IMG/VR virus record: IMGVR_UViG_3300009068_000152 | Location: 1 to 27,770 of that record | Length of the DNA: 27,770 bases | Strand: one strand, 5' to 3' | Source: a virus | In this document: piece by piece, positions 1 to 26,238 of the stretch | Numbering within the stretch: position 1 is the stretch's first letter | Layout of the letters: every line of letters starts with the position of its first letter | Position numbers and translations under genes: made by a program | Notes under the pieces: generated by a model | The model's input: only the letters and a program-made list of their open reading frames with translations | Database searches by the model: none | Told to the model about the DNA's origin: nothing

Positions 1-90
1 ATGAGGAAACCGCGGGCGGCGGTACACCCAAAACGCTGGCGTCGGCGGTTTGGCGAAAACGAAGCTTCACGACATAGGCTACTGCCGTAG
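1..90 (+). CDS. Possible 3' end of an upstream gene, very basic tail
   Basis: Frame 1 is open from the first base to a TAG at 88-90 and would encode about 29 residues rich in Arg and Lys. The window happens to begin with ATG, so this could be a tiny ORF, but it is more likely the tail of a gene running in from the left. The stop codon lies inside the promoter-like motif before the HNH gene, the same arrangement seen at the next motif copy, which gives mild support that a real gene ends here. No family is recognisable. Confidence 0.3.
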   Translation: MRKPRAAVHPKRWRRRFGENEASRHRLLP

Positions 91-96
91 ACTATT
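75..96 (+). promoter_or_regulatory. Promoter-like bipartite motif, copy 1 (HNH gene)
   Basis: TAGGCTAC (75-82), five unconserved bases, then TAGACTATT (88-96). The HNH start codon follows 3 nt later at 100, with no Shine-Dalgarno between. If TAGACT (88-93) is read as a TANNNT-type -10 box, transcription would begin at about the A of the ATG, giving a leaderless message. The same layout recurs at 1456, 6931, 20988 and 23080. Promoter function is inferred from recurrence and position; the recognising polymerase or sigma factor is unknown. Confidence 0.6.
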
Positions 97-99
97 GGC

Positions 100-1458
100 A
101 TGGATTGCGTCATTGGAGGATGCGCCACGCAAGGCAGACTGTGTTTTGTTTGCGGCCGAGAGTGCCCCGCGGCAGTCGGCTTGAACGCCCGCGTCTATTG
201 CTCGCCAGAGTGCCGAGCGAGGGGTCGAACGCAGAAGATTCGCAGGGCAAGGAAGAAGCCAGAGGCGATGCCGTGTGCTGTCTGCGGCGTCGAAATCCAG
301 CAAGACTTGAGTTCTTGCGGTCGCACTAAAAACCTCTGCTCGCAGCCTTGCAAGACGGCCTGGAAGCGAGCGAGGGAAGGGCGTCATCCGAAGCCAGAGT
401 CGGTGCCGTGCGCGGCCTGCGGTTGCGCGATACCGCAGGTCGCGAACTCACCTGGGCGTATCGCCACCATATGCTCAGACGAATGCAGGAGGGCGGCCGA
501 ACGCGCTCGAGAAAAGAAGGCGAAGAAGCAGTCATGCGAACGATGCGGCTGCGACTTCGATGCGATCTACACGAAGCGATTCTGTTCAAGGAAGTGCCAA
601 TACAAAGGACGCGGTCGAGTTCACGGCGAGACACGCCCGTGCGAGCGATGCGGCACCCCTGTCGTGCAGACGTGTAAAAGACATAGGTTCTGCTCTTACG
701 CATGTATAAAACCTGCGGCCGTGTTTCAGTGCTTGAATTGCGATGTTGAGTTTAAGAAGAAGATATTTAAGAGTGGTGCTTACTCCTGCGCGAAAAAGTA
801 TTGCTCGCGAGAGTGTGCGTTTGAGGCTCGCCGGCTAAAGAAGAAGTGTGCAAGACGCCCGTTCGACATTGCGCGAACGCTCGCTTCATGGTTCTTGTCG
901 TGGGGCGAATGCGAGCGGCCGAAAGTGAGGCAGTGCTCGTCGTGCGGAGTTCGCCGGCTCCTCGGCGAAAGCGAGGTATGCAAGGAATGCACGCGGCAGT
1001 CTGCACCGAGGGAGTGCCGCTCCTGCGGGATCGAAATCAGCAAGGCGAGATACCAGACGCGGTGCGAGTGGTGCAAAGACAAAGCCAAGCGAGAGGCAAA
1101 GCGAAAGGCCAAGAACAAGTACGGCCGCAACCACAAGCAACGAACGAGACGCCGGGGTGCCCCCTACACGCCGATCCGCAACACGGCGATATATGAGCGA
1201 GATAACTGGGAGTGCCAGATATGCTGCCGTCCGCTCGAGAGAGCGTGGAAGCAACTGAAGCGGGGAGACATTCCCTCGCCTCGGGCCAGGACTGTCGATC
1301 ATGTGATACCCCTAGCCCAAGGCAAGGACAGCCCAGGCCACGTCTGGCACAATCTGATAGCGTGCTGCCATGAGTGCAATACTGCGAAGTGCGACAAAGA
1401 CCCCACTGGCTGGCACTGCACCCTGCCGCGGTCGCCCGATCCCTTTGCACTGCCATAG
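100..1458 (+). CDS. HNH endonuclease with an N-terminal array of eight zinc-knuckle units
   Basis: A 452-residue protein. Residues 15-325 carry eight CxxC...CxxxC or CxxC...CxxC units (first Cys pair near 15, 59, 104, 146, 181, 211, 279 and 306); several end in FCSxxC or YCSxxC, as in MYM/TRASH-type treble-clef fingers. A Lys/Arg-rich linker (about 326-353) precedes a C-terminal HNH domain: CxxC at 372-375, D400-H401 followed by VIPLA, H417-N418, then CxxC at 423-426 followed by N427 and K430. HNH nucleases beside terminase genes are known to take part in packaging-linked DNA cleavage in HK97-like phages, and this gene directly precedes the small terminase. The finger array probably binds DNA or a packaging partner; that is inference. 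The ATG at 100 has no Shine-Dalgarno but sits 3 nt after the promoter-like motif. The stop TAG is the first three bases of the next motif copy. Confidence 0.9.
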   Translation: MDCVIGGCATQGRLCFVCGRECPAAVGLNARVYCSPECRARGRTQKIRRARKKPEAMPCAVCGVEIQQDLSSCGRTKNLCSQPCKTAWKRAREGRHPKPESVPCAACGCAIPQVANSPGRIATICSDECRRAAERAREKKAKKQSCERCGCDFDAIYTKRFCSRKCQYKGRGRVHGETRPCERCGTPVVQTCKRHRFCSYACIKPAAVFQCLNCDVEFKKKIFKSGAYSCAKKYCSRECAFEARRLKKKCARRPFDIARTLASWFLSWGECERPKVRQCSSCGVRRLLGESEVCKECTRQSAPRECRSCGIEISKARYQTRCEWCKDKAKREAKRKAKNKYGRNHKQRTRRRGAPYTPIRNTAIYERDNWECQICCRPLERAWKQLKRGDIPSPRARTVDHVIPLAQGKDSPGHVWHNLIACCHECNTAKCDKDPTGWHCTLPRSPDPFALP

Positions 1459-1481: not shown

Positions 1482-1964
1482 ATGGCAAAAGGCCCAGCAC
1501 CAACGCCGAAGCACATATTGGCCCTCCGAGGGTCGAAGGAAGCCAACTACCGCGAGGAGTTAGGCACGCCGATTTCGTCGCTTCCGGTGCCTCCCGAGTG
1601 GATGCGGCCTGCGGCGAAGGAGATGTTCAACCTCGTCTGCGGGTACACCCAGCGAATGGGCACGCTCGCGGAGAGCGACGTTGAGGTCATCGCCCGGTAT
1701 TCAATCGTCTGGGATCGATGGCGTGAGGCTGAGATGAACCTCGCCAAGATGGATTCGGGCTGGATCGAGGTGACCGCCCCCGACGGCTCCCTGCGTTTCA
1801 GCCGGCCAAACAAGTGGCAATCCCAGAGCAACCACTGCCATGAGCAACTCCGGCAGTTGGAGACAGTTCTTGGTCTGACCCCAGCCGACCGCACCCGCAT
1901 GGGCTACCACGCGGAGAAGGTCGTGCTCGATCCAATGGATGCTCTGCTCGCGAAACGTGGTTGA
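1482..1964 (+). CDS. terS: Terminase small subunit, P27 family
   Basis: A 160-residue protein starting MAKGPAPTPKHILALRG, which matches the usual P27-type (Terminase_4) N-terminus. The family pattern continues: a proline-rich PVPPEWMRPAA segment, helices around TLAESDVEVIARYSIVW, a short beta excursion near VTAPDGSLRFSRPN, and a C-terminal LGLTPADRTRM. The small subunit recognises the packaging site on concatemeric phage DNA and hands it to the large subunit. The frame is open upstream to 1374, but the start at 1482 is preferred because of family length and its position 4 nt after the promoter-like motif. It overlaps the large-subunit gene by 26 nt, as is common for terminase pairs. Confidence 0.9.
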   Translation: MAKGPAPTPKHILALRGSKEANYREELGTPISSLPVPPEWMRPAAKEMFNLVCGYTQRMGTLAESDVEVIARYSIVWDRWREAEMNLAKMDSGWIEVTAPDGSLRFSRPNKWQSQSNHCHEQLRQLETVLGLTPADRTRMGYHAEKVVLDPMDALLAKRG

Positions 1965-3471
1965 TATCCGCGATTTCATCGGCCTGCTCCAGCACAGTCG
2001 AGGTGACTTTGCCGGGAAGCCTTTCGTCCTAGAGAAGTGGCAGGACGAGTATCTCGACAAGCTCTTCAATACGAAGAAGCCCGACGGCCTCCGGCAATAT
2101 CGCACCAGTCTTCTGGCGATAAGTCGCAAGAACGGTAAGTCGGCGATGGCCGCCGCAATCGGGCTTTATATGCTCTGCTGCGACGACGTGGGGGCAGAGG
2201 TAATCGTCGCGGCCGGCGACCGCTCGCAGGCGGCTCTGTTACATACCGCGGCGAAACAGTTCGTCGAGTCGTGCCCGTCGCTATCGAAGAGGTGCAAGGT
2301 CTACCGGAACAGCATCGTCCTGCCCGAGAGGAACGCGACGATGATCTGCATCTCAAGTGAGGCCGGGACGAAGCACGGCTACAACCCAAGCTGTGTCCTA
2401 GTCGATGAATATCACGTCTTCCCAGACCGCGAGCTAGTCGATGTCCTAGAGACGGGCACCGGCTCCAGAAGCCAGCCGCTGACCCTTTACATAACGACAG
2501 CCGGCACCGATATGCTCGGCCCGTGCTACCGGGACTGGCAAAGGGCTGAAAAGATACGCGACGGCGTGCTCAAAGATGACTCGTTCCTGCCGTGCATATT
2601 CGCGGCTGGAATTGATGATGACCCCTTTGTGGAAACCACTTGGAAAAAAGCGAACCCGAACTACGGAATCACGCTAAAACCAGAGTATTTTGAGCAGTTT
2701 TCGCAGAAAGCGAAGGACAGCCCCGCCGACGAGATCGTCTTCCGCACGCTTCATCTCAACCAGTGGCAGAAGTCGGAAACGAAGTGGATTCGTCACGGTG
2801 CCTGGGACGCGAACAACGCCCCCCTGCGAGAAACTGCCGGCCGCCCCTGCTGGTGCGGCGTCGATCTTGCAAGCACGTTCGACACGACAGCTTTCGTCGC
2901 CGTCTGGCCGATGGCCGAGCCGGATGGCTCTCTGACCTATGACGTTCACGCCAAGTTCTTCATACCGGAAGAGAACGCACACAAGAGGTCGAAGGAGGAC
3001 AGAGTACCGTATCAAGCCTGGGCTGACGCTGGATATGTTAAATTAACGGAAGGCGATATCACGGACTATGACGCTGTTCGGGACTACATTCTCTCGTTTT
3101 GCGAGAAGAATTCCGTTCGGGCTATAGCCATTGATCGCTGGAACGCCGTTCATCTCACTACCCAACTCATAGGCGAGGGTATTGAAGTGAAGCCGTTCGG
3201 ACAGGGTTTTGCCAGCATGAGTTCGCCCTCTAAGCTGCTTGAAACCGCCGTAATTAGTAAACGCATCCGGCACGCTGGTAACCCCACCCTCGCGTGGCAG
3301 ATGAGCAATGTTCAGATTAAGATCGACGATGCGGCGAACATCAAACCGACTAAGAAGCACTCTCATTCGACGGCCCGTATCGACGGGGTTGTGGCATTGA
3401 TCATGGCTCTGGGCCTCGCCAGCGGCGAGAACCACGGCACTACCGACGAACCCACCCTCATGGTGCTCTAG
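1939..3471 (+). CDS. terL: Terminase large subunit, HK97-like (Terminase_1)
   Basis: A 510-residue packaging motor. The N-terminal ATPase has a Walker A-type SRKNGKS (residues 62-68), Walker B VLVDE (153-157) and a coupling motif TTAGTD (186-191). The C-terminal RNase H-like nuclease has candidate metal ligands D309 (GVDLAST), D399 (AIDRWN) and D482 (RIDGVVALIMA). It docks on the portal, pumps DNA into the prohead using ATP, and cuts the concatemer. The neighbouring HNH protein and small subunit complete the packaging set. The ATG at 1939 lies inside the small-subunit gene; the N-terminus is somewhat short for the family, so another start cannot be excluded. Confidence 0.95.
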   Translation: MLCSRNVVDIRDFIGLLQHSRGDFAGKPFVLEKWQDEYLDKLFNTKKPDGLRQYRTSLLAISRKNGKSAMAAAIGLYMLCCDDVGAEVIVAAGDRSQAALLHTAAKQFVESCPSLSKRCKVYRNSIVLPERNATMICISSEAGTKHGYNPSCVLVDEYHVFPDRELVDVLETGTGSRSQPLTLYITTAGTDMLGPCYRDWQRAEKIRDGVLKDDSFLPCIFAAGIDDDPFVETTWKKANPNYGITLKPEYFEQFSQKAKDSPADEIVFRTLHLNQWQKSETKWIRHGAWDANNAPLRETAGRPCWCGVDLASTFDTTAFVAVWPMAEPDGSLTYDVHAKFFIPEENAHKRSKEDRVPYQAWADAGYVKLTEGDITDYDAVRDYILSFCEKNSVRAIAIDRWNAVHLTTQLIGEGIEVKPFGQGFASMSSPSKLLETAVISKRIRHAGNPTLAWQMSNVQIKIDDAANIKPTKKHSHSTARIDGVVALIMALGLASGENHGTTDEPTLMVL

Positions 3472-5113: not shown

Positions 5114-5581
5114 ATGCCACAACCACTTGAAGGCGTCGTCGAAGCTCTCCAAGCGTCCCTTGCACTGCATTGGTCGCAGGCTGAGATGTATGACCTCCAG
5201 TCAGTTCATCTGACCCGCTGGGGCTACCCTAAGCTAGGCAAAACGTGGGCGGCATACGCCAAGGACGAGCGTCATCACATTAAGAAACTGTCGCAGCGTC
5301 TTGAATTCTTCGACGTGCAGCCGGAGCCTGCTCACCAGCCGCCCGAAACGTGCCGGCACGATTTTGAAGAGGTGCTGGAGGACAACTATGAGGCCGATTT
5401 GCAGGCAGCAGAGGTCGAAAGGCAGGGATATCTGACGTGTAGCGCCGTCGGAGACAGCACTTCGGCCAAGCTTTTCGCCAAACTTCGCGCCGGAAGCGAG
5501 GAATCAATGGCAAATATCGAAGCAATTCGACAAGTGATTTCTGACATCGGCCTTGATAACTACCTCGCAGCACAGGTCTGA
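5114..5581 (+). CDS. Bacterioferritin-like four-helix protein in the head module
   Basis: A 155-residue protein, the size of a bacterioferritin. Compared from memory with E. coli Bfr it aligns along its length: a helix ending in RWGYPKLG (Bfr NWGLKRL), then KDERHHIKKLSQRLEFFDVQP (Bfr [20 protein letters not shown]), FEEVLEDNYEADLQAA, and a C-terminal GLDNYLAAQV (Bfr GLQNYLQAQI). With WG as anchor, Bfr Tyr25 matches Y26, Glu51 matches E52 and His54 matches H55, but Glu18 is H19, heme-ligand Met52 is R53, Glu94 is D95, and the Glu127/His130 pair is roughly S128/S131. The fold therefore looks kept while heme binding and a complete diiron site look lost or remodelled. It sits between portal and protease, 2 nt from each, so it is probably co-made with head proteins. 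Iron binding, a structural role or cargo use are all open. Confidence 0.8.
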   Translation: MPQPLEGVVEALQASLALHWSQAEMYDLQSVHLTRWGYPKLGKTWAAYAKDERHHIKKLSQRLEFFDVQPEPAHQPPETCRHDFEEVLEDNYEADLQAAEVERQGYLTCSAVGDSTSAKLFAKLRAGSEESMANIEAIRQVISDIGLDNYLAAQV

Positions 5582-8958: not shown

Positions 8959-9687
8959 GTGCTATTGCGTATTGGTAACGTCGAAGCGGAAATCAAAGTC
9001 GCGGCGGTGATGTCCACCCCGCGACTTGGATTTACCGATAACTTCTTCTGCGTCTCATCCGCGCTCGCGCCCCACGGCATCAGTCCCACGAAGGTGACTG
9101 GTGCGTTCTGGGGGCAGTGTCTCCAGCGGTCAATGGAACAGGTCATCGACAACAACGATGTGATCCTGACCGTTGACTACGACACGGTCTTCAATGCGAA
9201 GACGGTCGAGGCGCTTCTAGCCCTTCTAATGCACTCGGGCTATGACGCGATTGCCCCGCTTCAGACGAAACGGGAGGCGAACGCCGTCATGTTCGCTCTA
9301 GCCGGCAGCGATGTCGAAGAAAAGACTGAGGTGGGCCGCGAGTTCTTTGAGAAGGTCGTCCAGCCCGTGGAGACGGCTCACTTCGGCCTGACGTTCCTGC
9401 GAACGTCGGCGCTGAAGAAGATGAAGAAGCCGTGGTTTCTCGCCCGTGCTAATGACCAGGGCGAGTGGACGGGCGGGCACACCGACGAGGATATCTATTT
9501 CTGGAAGCAGTGGGCCGCCTGCGGCAATACGCTGGGCCTCGCCACTCACGTCAGCGTCGGGCACGCCGAACTGATGGTCACATGGCCCTCTAGGACTGAC
9601 GCCAGCGGCAAGGTGCAGCAGCACACGACCGAGTATTGGAACAGCGGCCAGAAGGCACCAGAGAAAGCCTGGGGGCAAGTCAATTGA
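8959..9687 (+). CDS. Glycosyltransferase-like protein (GT-A type) in the head operon
   Basis: A 242-residue protein with a GTG start and AGGAG (8948-8952) at 6-nt spacing. The core resembles family 2-type GT-A enzymes: a segment counting residues from a nucleotide fold, VILTVDYDTVF with a D-x-D metal/sugar-nucleotide motif at residues 73-75, AIAPLQTKR, a GLTFLR segment, GGHTDEDIYFWKQW (residues 172-185) where an acidic catalytic residue would lie, and VSVGHAE with a possible metal-binding His at 202. It would transfer a sugar from an activated donor. Lying between decoration and connector genes, it may modify virion proteins or a host surface glycan; the acceptor cannot be read from sequence. 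No membrane segment is seen. Confidence 0.75.
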   Translation: MLLRIGNVEAEIKVAAVMSTPRLGFTDNFFCVSSALAPHGISPTKVTGAFWGQCLQRSMEQVIDNNDVILTVDYDTVFNAKTVEALLALLMHSGYDAIAPLQTKREANAVMFALAGSDVEEKTEVGREFFEKVVQPVETAHFGLTFLRTSALKKMKKPWFLARANDQGEWTGGHTDEDIYFWKQWAACGNTLGLATHVSVGHAELMVTWPSRTDASGKVQQHTTEYWNSGQKAPEKAWGQVN

Positions 9688-23449: not shown

Positions 23450-23815
23450 ATCGCAACCTTCAGCCAGCTTCCAGGTGTATTGGACATTCTCGCGGTACAC
23501 GGCGACGAAGTGAACGTCGCAATTTCGCTCGGCCGGGACGTTACTAGCTACTCCTGGGAGAGCTACGTTTACCAGAGCGACACGACCACGGCTGGCGGCG
23601 GTGCTGGCTCGCTCTCGGGCATCGGCACCACGGTAACGCAGCCGACCATCGGCATCTCCAACGCCTCAACTGGGGCGCTGGTGATCGGCCTAAACGAGAC
23701 GCAGACGAATCTCCTTTCGCCGGGGACGACCTACCGCTGGTATCTGCGGTGGATTTCGCCAACGGCCATCACCCGCACGATCATTAGCGGAAGCGTCACG
23801 GCGGTAGCCCCATGA
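23450..23815 (+). CDS. Small beta protein of adhesion cassette 1, probable AUC start
   Basis: The frame is open from 23438 and gives 121 residues from ATC 23450: IATFSQLPGVLDILAVHGDE, then VNVAISLGRDVTSYSWESYVY. A GAGGTGAG (23439-23446) ends 3 nt before this ATC, while the alternative TTG at 23480 has no Shine-Dalgarno. The paralogue at 26712 begins STYSVLPGTMNLAFKRAGDF, so the alignment demands the N-terminus beginning near ATC. The C-terminus (LSPGTTYRWYLRWISPTAITRTIISGSV) matches the paralogue's ALASGTYGWQLDWVAPGSVQRTALTGTV. The fold looks Ig-like, a BppU-type small virion domain perhaps. Its stop overlaps the fibre ATG by 4 nt. Confidence 0.7.
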   Translation: MATFSQLPGVLDILAVHGDEVNVAISLGRDVTSYSWESYVYQSDTTTAGGGAGSLSGIGTTVTQPTIGISNASTGALVIGLNETQTNLLSPGTTYRWYLRWISPTAITRTIISGSVTAVAP

Positions 23816-26238
23816 GCGAAATATCCGTCGTCGTCGTCGGATCGACGAGTATTTCAAGCACCGTGGGTAACGGCGACTCGGTCAGCGTCAATGTCGGCGA
23901 CCAGACCATCGGCGGCGGCAACGGAGCCGCGGCGACCGTACAAGTCGGCACGGTCACGACGCTCGGAACTACGGCGTCCGCATCCGTTGTGAATTCTGGC
24001 ACGTCCTATGCAGCCAAGCTGGATTTTGGATTGCCGCGCGGGCTGACGGGGGCAACCGGCCCCGCAAACTCGCTGTCCATTGGCAGCGTGACGACTGGAG
24101 CCACGGCGGCCGTCACTATCAGCGGCTCGGCACCATCGCAGACTCTCGCTTTTGTCCTTCAGCCGGGTGCTGCCGGTTCAGCCGGCCCCGCAAATTCTCT
24201 GTCGGTGGCAAGCGTGACGACGGGGACAACTGCGGCCGTGAGCATAAGCGGAACCGCACCCTCTCAGACTCTGTCTTTCGTGCTTCAGCCAGGGCCGACT
24301 GGAAATTCTGGGCCAGCCAATTCTATATCTATCGGCAGCGTCACCACCGGAACAACGGCTGCTGTCAGCATTAGCGGCACAGCACCGTCTCAGTCGCTCT
24401 CGTTCGTACTCCCAGCGGGGCCGGCGAACTTGCTATCCATCGGGAGCGTCACCACCGGAACAACGGCAGCGGTGAGCATTAGCGGAACCGCACCCTCTCA
24501 GACTCTGTCTTTCGTACTTCAGCCAGGGCCTGCCGGTGCCTCTGGCAGTACGAATATGTCCGACGCCACGCCAGCGGCACTGGGCACGGCGGCGGCTGGC
24601 ACCTCAAGCCTCGCCAGCAGAAGTGACCACGTTCATTCGCTGCCGACGATTTCGTATACGGCCTTGAGTAACGTGCCAACGTCTTTCTCGCCGGCCACCC
24701 ACACGCAGACCGCAAGCACCATAAGTGACTTCGCGGTTGAGGTGGCAAAGATCGGGAACGTGCTGTCGGTCAACGGGCTTACGGGCGCTGTGACGATCAC
24801 GGCCGGCGGCGGCACTTCTGGGGCATCGCTATCAAGCGCTACCCCGCAGCCACTCGGAACTGCTGCGCCTGGAACGTCAAGCCTTGCCTCTCGAGACGAT
24901 CACGTTCATTTGCTGCCTACGATTTCCTATACGGCACTGAGCAATGTGCCGACGAGTTTCTCGCCGGCCACCCATACCCAAACCGCAAGCACCATCAGCG
25001 ACTTCGCCACCCAGTCCGCCCTATACGGCCCGGTCACCTCAGTGGCGACGAGGACGGGCGCTATCACGCTGGTTAAGGGCGACGTGGGGTTGGGCAGCGT
25101 CGATAACGTCGCCGACGCAAGTAAGCCCGTCTCGACCGCCCAGGCGGCCGCTGACGCTGCCGTGCAGGCATACTCTATTCAGAGAACAAACCACACTGGA
25201 TCGCAGCTTGCGGCGACAATCAGCGACTTCGCCACCCAGTCCGCTCTCTATGGCCCGGTCACCTCAGTGGCGACGAGGACTGGGGATATTACGCTCGTCA
25301 AGGGCGACGTGGGGCTGGGCAACGTCGATAATGTCGCAGACGCAAGCAAGCCTGTCTCGACGGCCCAAGCCGCCGCAGACGCTGCCGTGCAGGCGTATTC
25401 GATCCAACGAACAAACCACACTGGATCGCAGCTTGCGGCGACAATTAGCGACTTCGCTGCTCAATCGGCCCTCTACGGCCCAGTCACGTCGGTGGCTTCG
25501 CGTACAGGCGCTGTGTCACTGACCAAGTCAGACGTGGGCTTGAGCGCGGTCGATAACGTAGCCGACGCCAGCAAGCCCGTTTCGACGGCTCAAGCGGCTG
25601 CGGACGCCGCGGTGCAGGCATACTCCATTCAGAGAACAAACCACACTGGATCGCAGCTTGCATCGACTATCAGCGACTTCGCTACCCAATCCGCCCTCTA
25701 CGGCCCGGTCACGTCGGTGGCGTCGAAGACCGGGGCCGTCTCGCTTGTTAAGGGCGACGTGGGGTTGGGCAGCGTCGATAACGTGGCCGACGCCAGTAAA
25801 CCCGTTTCGACGGCTCAAGCGGCTGCGGACGCTGCCGTGCAGGCATTTGCGATCCAGCGTGCGAATCACACTGGCACCCAAGCCTCGAGCACAGTTTCCG
25901 GCCTCGCCACAATCGCCACATCGGGGTCGGCAAGTGATTTGAGTACGGGCACGGTTCCTGCCGGCCGAATCCCCGCAGCCACAAACTCAAGTATCGGCGG
26001 CGTGATCGTCGGCACTGGTTTGGCTGTCAGTAGTGGCACCATCAGTGCGAACGTAGTCAGCGTTCAAGGCAGGACGGGCACGGTGACAATCACGACGACT
26101 GAGTTGTCGGCCGTGACCAGCATCGTGTCCGGCATTACCGGCGCGAACGCGGTGACGAATGTCGTCTACCTCACCGCCGCGGCGTATGCGGCGCTTGGCA
26201 CAAAGTCGTCCACGACGCTGTATGTCGTTTCGGGGTGA
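23812..26238 (+). CDS. Repetitive tail fibre, adhesion cassette 1
   Basis: An 808-residue Ser/Thr/Ala/Gly/Val-rich fibre. Order: N-terminal region with VVVVGSTSISSTVGNG; four GPANxLSIGSVTTGTTAAVSI-type units with collagen-like Gly-Pro turns (about residues 83-240); two 91-residue-spaced units with ATPxxLGTAAxGTSSLASRxDHVH, whose HVH triplets resemble metal-binding HxH of phage fibres (about 250-400); four 75-residue units with ALYGPVTSVATRTG, LVKGDVGLGxVDNVADASKP and AAADAAVQAYSIQRTNHTGSQ (394-693); and a C-terminal AAYAALGTKSSTTLYVVS ending like the YLTQAAYDALxxKDPNTLY motif of other fibres. Probably a trimeric receptor-binding stalk. No chaperone is apparent. Confidence 0.85.
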   Translation: MSEISVVVVGSTSISSTVGNGDSVSVNVGDQTIGGGNGAAATVQVGTVTTLGTTASASVVNSGTSYAAKLDFGLPRGLTGATGPANSLSIGSVTTGATAAVTISGSAPSQTLAFVLQPGAAGSAGPANSLSVASVTTGTTAAVSISGTAPSQTLSFVLQPGPTGNSGPANSISIGSVTTGTTAAVSISGTAPSQSLSFVLPAGPANLLSIGSVTTGTTAAVSISGTAPSQTLSFVLQPGPAGASGSTNMSDATPAALGTAAAGTSSLASRSDHVHSLPTISYTALSNVPTSFSPATHTQTASTISDFAVEVAKIGNVLSVNGLTGAVTITAGGGTSGASLSSATPQPLGTAAPGTSSLASRDDHVHLLPTISYTALSNVPTSFSPATHTQTASTISDFATQSALYGPVTSVATRTGAITLVKGDVGLGSVDNVADASKPVSTAQAAADAAVQAYSIQRTNHTGSQLAATISDFATQSALYGPVTSVATRTGDITLVKGDVGLGNVDNVADASKPVSTAQAAADAAVQAYSIQRTNHTGSQLAATISDFAAQSALYGPVTSVASRTGAVSLTKSDVGLSAVDNVADASKPVSTAQAAADAAVQAYSIQRTNHTGSQLASTISDFATQSALYGPVTSVASKTGAVSLVKGDVGLGSVDNVADASKPVSTAQAAADAAVQAFAIQRANHTGTQASSTVSGLATIATSGSASDLSTGTVPAGRIPAATNSSIGGVIVGTGLAVSSGTISANVVSVQGRTGTVTITTTELSAVTSIVSGITGANAVTNVVYLTAAAYAALGTKSSTTLYVVSG
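24058..24525 (+). repeat. Four tandem 42-residue units in the fibre (126, 126, 108 bp)
   Basis: Units begin at 24058, 24184, 24310 and 24418, with the core ANSLSIGSVTTGTTAAVSIS, GTAPSQTLSFVLQPG. Two stretches near 24249-24296 and 24481-24530 are nearly base-identical, which points to recent copy exchange. The fourth spacing is shorter by 18 bp, so the unit length varies in whole codons. Confidence 0.85.
24559..25011 (+). repeat. Two HVH-containing fibre units, 273 bp apart
   Basis: Copies begin at 24559 and 24832. Each encodes SxATPxxLGTAAxGTSSLAS, RxDHVHxLPTISYTALSNVP and SFSPATHTQTASTISDFA. The second half is nearly identical in protein. Another unit of this family occurs in the second fibre (SDATPLAPGAAAAGTAATAS, then RSDHRHAAP). 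Confidence 0.8.
24991..25890 (+). repeat. Four tandem 225-bp units in the fibre
   Basis: Units begin at 24991, 25216, 25441 and 25666, each exactly 225 bp (75 codons). They start at TISDFATQSALYGPV and run to the TNHTGSQLA-type end. Long runs are identical between copies, for example around 25168 and 25618, indicating recent duplication or gene conversion. Confidence 0.9.

Follow-up and report, generated by a model that had tools for sequence, protein, structure and literature searches.

A gene at one end of the window (the whole 27,770-base stretch of an IMG/VR virus record analysed here) encodes an HNH protein with a long N-terminal array of Cys units. We tentatively read it, at a probability of roughly 0.48, as an array-guided HNH nickase or nuclease acting near cos, specified by a homing-type accessory gene that is tied to a cassette formed by cos and the terminase small subunit (TerS). 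As read from the sequences of its relatives, the gene has been gained and lost repeatedly, is strictly linked to one type of TerS (TerS-a), takes part in cassette swaps with a breakpoint at the 3'-end of TerS, and has had its array swapped. Gain, loss and reshuffling are so frequent that the gene resembles a mobile helper rather than a permanent component of the packaging machine. Its location favours a link to packaging, and a packaging role is plausible, whereas its turnover and swapping speak for an accessory gene of the homing type.

The protein has 452 residues, of which 50 are Cys. N-terminal to the HNH domain are eight non-overlapping units of the form C-x2-C ... C-x(2-3)-C (residues 15-38, 59-84, 104-129, 146-166, 181-202, 211-239, 279-297 and 306-325), spaced about 30-70 residues apart. 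The gene and its parts are:

100-1458, plus strand: array-HNH endonuclease gene, ATG start, 452 aa
142-705, plus strand: exchangeable section of the Cys array, made up of units 1-5 (residues 15-202)
730-906, plus strand: central unit 6 (C211-C239, KYCSRECAFEARR) and the ..WFLSW helical segment, which reaches about residue 269
934-1074, plus strand: units 7-8 (residues 279-325), missing from one subfamily (e.g. L015 and L019)
1141-1395, plus strand: HNH nuclease domain (residues 348-432) and a CxxC...CxxC of its own, PF01844, invariant residues

Residue shuffles of the protein (n = 5000) yielded 1.33 units on average and no more than 5 in any one shuffle, which confirms the original prediction of an HNH protein with a long N-terminal array of eight such units. 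The FCSxxC-type endings that it described are also there: units 1-6 end in C-S-x2-C (YCSPEC, LCSQPC, ICSDEC, FCSRKC, FCSYAC and YCSREC), with FCS in units 4 and 5, and units 7 and 8 end in C-x2-C. Their assignment to MYM/TRASH fingers was not supported, as MYM, FCS and TRASH models gave zero matches in the window protein and 31 relatives. The profile search proposed for array and HNH domain succeeded for the protein as a whole, with matches to PF01844 and PHROG 1271, but not for the array unit of the window protein, which matched no Pfam or NCBIfam family; treble-clef or zinc-ribbon models were matched by just one or two of the 31 relatives. The PF01844 match (residues 372-431; 22.6 bits, above the Pfam cut-off of 21.4) recurs in all 31 relatives. 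The nearest whole family, PHROG 1271 ('HNH endonuclease'; 8.5e-25, residues 210-434), spans both fingers and HNH, and is the best match also for four relatives and for the Sinorhizobium and Arthrobacter proteins described below.

Residues R348, D400-H401, N418 and N427 and four Cys of the HNH domain are invariant in alignment A3, and the HNH motif residues are unchanged across the 31 relatives. Unit 6 and the ..WFLSW segment, present in nearly all relatives, have mostly invariant columns (alignments A2 and A3). The array comprises four to eight units in the 27 related proteins counted; its Cys pairs are kept while the remaining array residues diverge, and its linkers are basic. AlphaFold2 (mean pLDDT 80, pTM 0.32) folded each unit as a short beta-hairpin and then a helix, with confidence that is good locally but poor globally, so that in the model the units resemble loosely connected beads on a string. 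A Foldseek search against the PDB returned no significant fold match; likeness to C2H2 arrays (CTCF) was weak (E 1e-3, TM about 0.1). Two phage HNH proteins, from Gaia (Mycobacterium) and GTE8 (Gordonia), are among the top structural matches. The Cys units are predicted to bind metal, probably zinc, and the array is predicted to bind DNA; by analogy, it is likely to read the DNA sequence.

The gene lies at the head of the order array-HNH (100-1458), TerS, TerL (the terminase large subunit), portal, and the features around it are:

1-6, no strand assigned: predicted left genome terminus (cos cut), from contig starts and a conserved core
18-40, plus strand: cosB-like cos-flank element GGCGGTACACCCAAAACGCTGGC, with a like element in TerS-a genomes with and without the HNH gene
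49-93, plus strand: TTTGGCGAAAAC element and -10-like TAGACT, with the TTTGG...TAGNCT layout found in relatives
1438-1448, plus strand: GATCCCTTTGC, a 2-mismatch variant of GACTCCTTTGC, in the 3'-end of the HNH gene, 44 nt before TerS
1482-1964, plus strand: terminase small subunit, TerS type a (PF05119, 4e-14; PHROG 83)
1939-3471, plus strand: terminase large subunit, PF20441/PF03354 type, by profile match

Relatives were taken from about 200 loci found in scans with the array-HNH protein, TerS and TerL. About 36 of the 76 TerS-a contigs start at the terminus or adjacent to it, which puts their first base 75-185 nt ahead of the first packaging gene. Many independent contigs share this start (about 83-145 nt ahead of the HNH gene, and in loci that lack this gene about 75-185 nt ahead of TerS); in contigs that extend past it, the conserved core GCAGACCGCNTGTCC ends there, and base 1 of the window aligns directly after this core in relatives whose contigs cross the terminus. 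From assembly ends and conservation we infer that the shared start is a cos end and coincides with base 1, which would place the array-HNH gene between cos and TerS. Matches to the full cos core (AGACCGCNTGTCC) within the window are at chance level only, as expected if the window begins at the cut; the core is also absent from the right ends of long contigs, several of which finish in repeats. TerS-b genomes share the core but have a different flank element (GCGGACAAAACTGG), and thus the flank follows the type of TerS, not the HNH gene. The TTTGG...TAGNCT layout precedes the start codon in similar form in most relatives with the HNH gene, and 49-93 is probably the promoter of that gene, which would then have only a very short leader. 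Upstream of the cos core, L002 (1-330), L047, L055, L057 and L067 have tandem-repeat-like arrays, and some contigs finish in such arrays (right ends of the G007, G021 and G031 records); in L002, a GP88-like gene (PF17338) sits between the repeats and cos. Further along the window, a ferritin-like protein gene (5114-5581; PF00210, 6.8e-12) is found in the virion-structure operon, with portal and prohead protease on either side; a weak glycosyltransferase-like match (8959-9687; PF13632, below cut-off) falls among structural genes; and a tandem repeat of 225 bases in 3.8 copies (24994-25846) lies within a tail-tip-like protein gene (23812-26238).

Exact GACTCCTTTGC is present as a single copy, always just upstream of TerS, in 10 of 16 genomes searched, and is absent from the other six. 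It stands 44 nt ahead of TerS in type-a genomes whether or not they carry the HNH gene (L015, 1274-1284; L019, 1079-1089; L056, 1958-1968) and also shortly upstream of TerS in type-b genomes; where the HNH gene is present it encodes the C-terminal residues DSFA. Because it precedes TerS in genomes that lack the HNH gene, it was first suspected to be a homing site broken by insertion, an idea rejected since the motif is intact inside the 3'-end of HNH ORFs. It is possibly a TerS promoter or a packaging-related site.

Every relative with the central finger YCSRECAFEARR is encoded 3-24 nt upstream of TerS-a, except for a few remote matches and one truncated contig; the HNH gene always adjoins TerS-a and is never paired with TerS-b. 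Searches for relatives of the array-HNH protein gave only short remote matches in the bacterial genomes searched, and none in plasmids. A second, short HNH gene of the PHROG 589/144 type is found in L211 (380-739) and L213 (543-884, minus strand), and in several long relatives, some with the array gene and some lacking it, PF01844 matches of similar size are located about 5-12 kb upstream of cos.

Within TerS-a loci, the HNH gene is present in 38 of 76 and absent from 38. Mapping presence and absence on the TerS-a tree requires 14 changes, at least 11 of them forced by well-supported branches, and on the TerL tree 12 changes (at least 11). As expected of a free-standing homing endonuclease, the gene comes and goes in otherwise near-identical loci: L155, which has it, and L157, which does not, have the same TerS, are 98.5% identical over 3.5 kb further downstream and differ hardly at all in their cos flank. 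Two loci without the gene retain relics of it, the HNH upstream region in L145 and the 3' codons in L176, so that at least these two look like losses; no decayed copies were seen besides such deletion relics. Cassettes with the HNH gene have TerL proteins that differ little from those of TerS-b genomes (L066/L071, 0.4%; L042/L035, 0.6%; window/L008, 3.1%), and loci with the gene are nearer by TerL to TerS-b genomes than are TerS-a loci without it (Mann-Whitney p = 1.5e-4, a value that ignores phylogenetic dependence and comes from a TerL set collected with an HNH-positive query). In the six pairs examined, identity climbs at the 3'-end of TerS, which marks the exchange boundary. The two types of TerS, together with the cos flank, are found swapped on near-identical TerL (1482-1964 of the window; L007, L029, L035, L046 and L071). 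Phage mosaicism by itself could account for the cassette swap.

The array has a history of its own. Between the window and L002, identity is 29% in the array, 98% in the HNH domain and 100% in TerS, and between L015 and L017 it is 53%, 95% and 97%, respectively; L066 and L067 have identical TerS (100%) and HNH domains only 56% identical. These values indicate that the array is exchanged independently of the HNH domain. Pairwise dN/dS, with several mis-segmented rows left out, is about 0.2-0.4 for the array, roughly 0.05-0.2 for HNH and 0.02-0.1 for TerS; by these ratios purifying selection acts on HNH, while evolution is faster in the array. Positive selection on the array was considered and rejected, its dN/dS being faster yet purifying. 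Co-variation of the array with the cos flank was likewise rejected as a specific signal: partial Mantel tests that controlled for TerS and for the other region gave r values of 0.16 (array) and 0.19 (HNH), and the array follows the flank no better than HNH or TerS does.

In the homing-type reading, the N-terminal string of treble-clef-like zinc knuckles would bind DNA and direct the HNH cut to the cos-TerS region; the gene would move with the cos flank and one type of TerS into related genomes, later to be removed by deletion, and would have its array exchanged. Cutting of the cos-TerS region would drive the spread of the cassette, and the protein may additionally assist the terminase in cos cleavage. 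The strict pairing with TerS-a and the lack of decayed copies fit a maintained packaging function equally well, and the main rival, which we hold to be possible but less probable, is a packaging helper of the kind of HK97 GP74, in which HNH would cut cos together with TerL and TerS while the array grips cos-flanking DNA or terminase. As expected of a GP74-type packaging HNH, the gene adjoins terminase, always 3-24 nt upstream of TerS, and a cos end predicted from conservation and contig ends; its HNH domain is under purifying selection, and GP74 with terminase promotes cos cleavage in vitro (PMC9410871). Unrelated cultured phages, too, have genes for finger-HNH proteins at the end of the genome or ahead of TerS: gp107 of Mycobacterium phage Shauna1 stops 66 nt from the right end, with TerS (gene 1) beginning 109 nt from the left end; in Gordonia phage Easley the finger-HNH gp1 is followed by TerS; in Arthrobacter 1191A (CDS70) the gene is immediately upstream of TerS; and KNLIENLN_00049 of Sinorhizobium NV1.1.1 lies a few hundred bases before genes of terminase-like size (putative terminase). 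However, Gaia and GTE8 have no such long HNH gene in the genome-end regions inspected, the correlation of array and cos is not above that of HNH or TerS and cos, and the packaging HNH could instead be the other, short one that some relatives encode several kb upstream of cos. Absence of the gene from half of the TerS-a loci, once beside an identical TerS and a near-identical cos flank, argues against an obligatory packaging role. We rank the homing-type nuclease above an obligatory packaging factor because cos flank, TerS and TerL are kept without the gene and some genomes carry another short HNH. The original prediction of a packaging protein of distinct architecture thus stands in the position of the gene, between a cos-like terminus and terminase, and is not supported as to the array, which tracks the cos flank no more closely than HNH or TerS does, nor as to the architecture, since finger-plus-HNH proteins near cos and terminase were already known (PHROG 1271, cultured phages) and the present one is an elaboration. 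Homologues losing the array without consequence, which it had named as counting against it, were found in part, as arrays range from four to eight units and the 38 loci lacking the gene keep cos flank, TerS and TerL.

A bolder form of the homing-type reading, which we regard as rather unlikely, casts the array as a modular, evolvable device for addressing DNA, nature's equivalent of an engineered zinc-finger nickase; it would target the cos-TerS alleles of co-infecting relatives and drive replacement of the cassette that sets packaging specificity, cos flank plus TerS, while TerL stays. Still less probable is an interference nuclease, whose array-guided attack on the cos/TerS regions of co-infecting phages or satellites would lead the array to diversify: rapid array change and array swapping agree with it, and satellites are attacked by Odn and other nucleases derived from HEGs (PMC10448857), but an array dN/dS below 1 gives no signal of diversifying selection, and PADLOC matches are weak and confined to the HNH region. 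That the array is structural, protein-binding or metal-free, without a role in DNA recognition, is the most improbable of all, the lack of a profile match for the unit and the weak CTCF-type resemblance being set against Cys pairs conserved amid diverging residues, basic linkers and knuckle-like folds modelled with local confidence.

Whether HNH genes beside terminase are packaging parts or homing genes at a hot spot is an open debate; Barth and colleagues placed a hot spot for HEG-like nucleases upstream of terminase and noted that both readings may hold (PMC10448857). The debate becomes directly testable with this family, which offers pairs of loci that match in TerS (identical) and cos flank (near-identical) but differ in the presence of the gene, and arrays swapped on a constant nuclease. 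The family also supplies natural variants for learning the recognition targets of Cys-knuckle arrays.

Among known systems, PHROG 1271 shares with the window protein the CxxC...CSxxC units ahead of a C-terminal HNH, and several of its phages carry the gene at the genome end or right before terminase; the cultured Mycobacterium, Gordonia, Arthrobacter and Sinorhizobium phages have shorter versions, with 1-4 units in the four proteins counted as against 4-8 in the window family. Zinc-ribbon HNH nicking endonucleases, reportedly described by Xu and Gupta in 2013 as encoded next to cos and terminase, are said to be similar in having additional zinc sites and in gene position, and to differ in being short, with one or two extra zinc sites rather than up to eight units. 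That 2013 work is cited in PMC5304195. HK97 GP74 is a short protein not known to have a finger array, unlike the window protein. Its HNH gene adjoins the cos-terminase region, as here, according to Kala 2014 as far as that work is cited in PMC9611059. T5orf172 homing nucleases carry repeated CapR/DUF723/DUF4397 Zn fingers that are altered by recombination (PMC10448857); they resemble the present family in combining a nuclease with a varying count of Zn-finger repeats, often close to terminase, and in repeat recombination, but have a T5orf172 nuclease domain instead of HNH, and other finger families. Thus, the finger-plus-HNH kind of protein is already known, and what is new is the array's length and dynamics.
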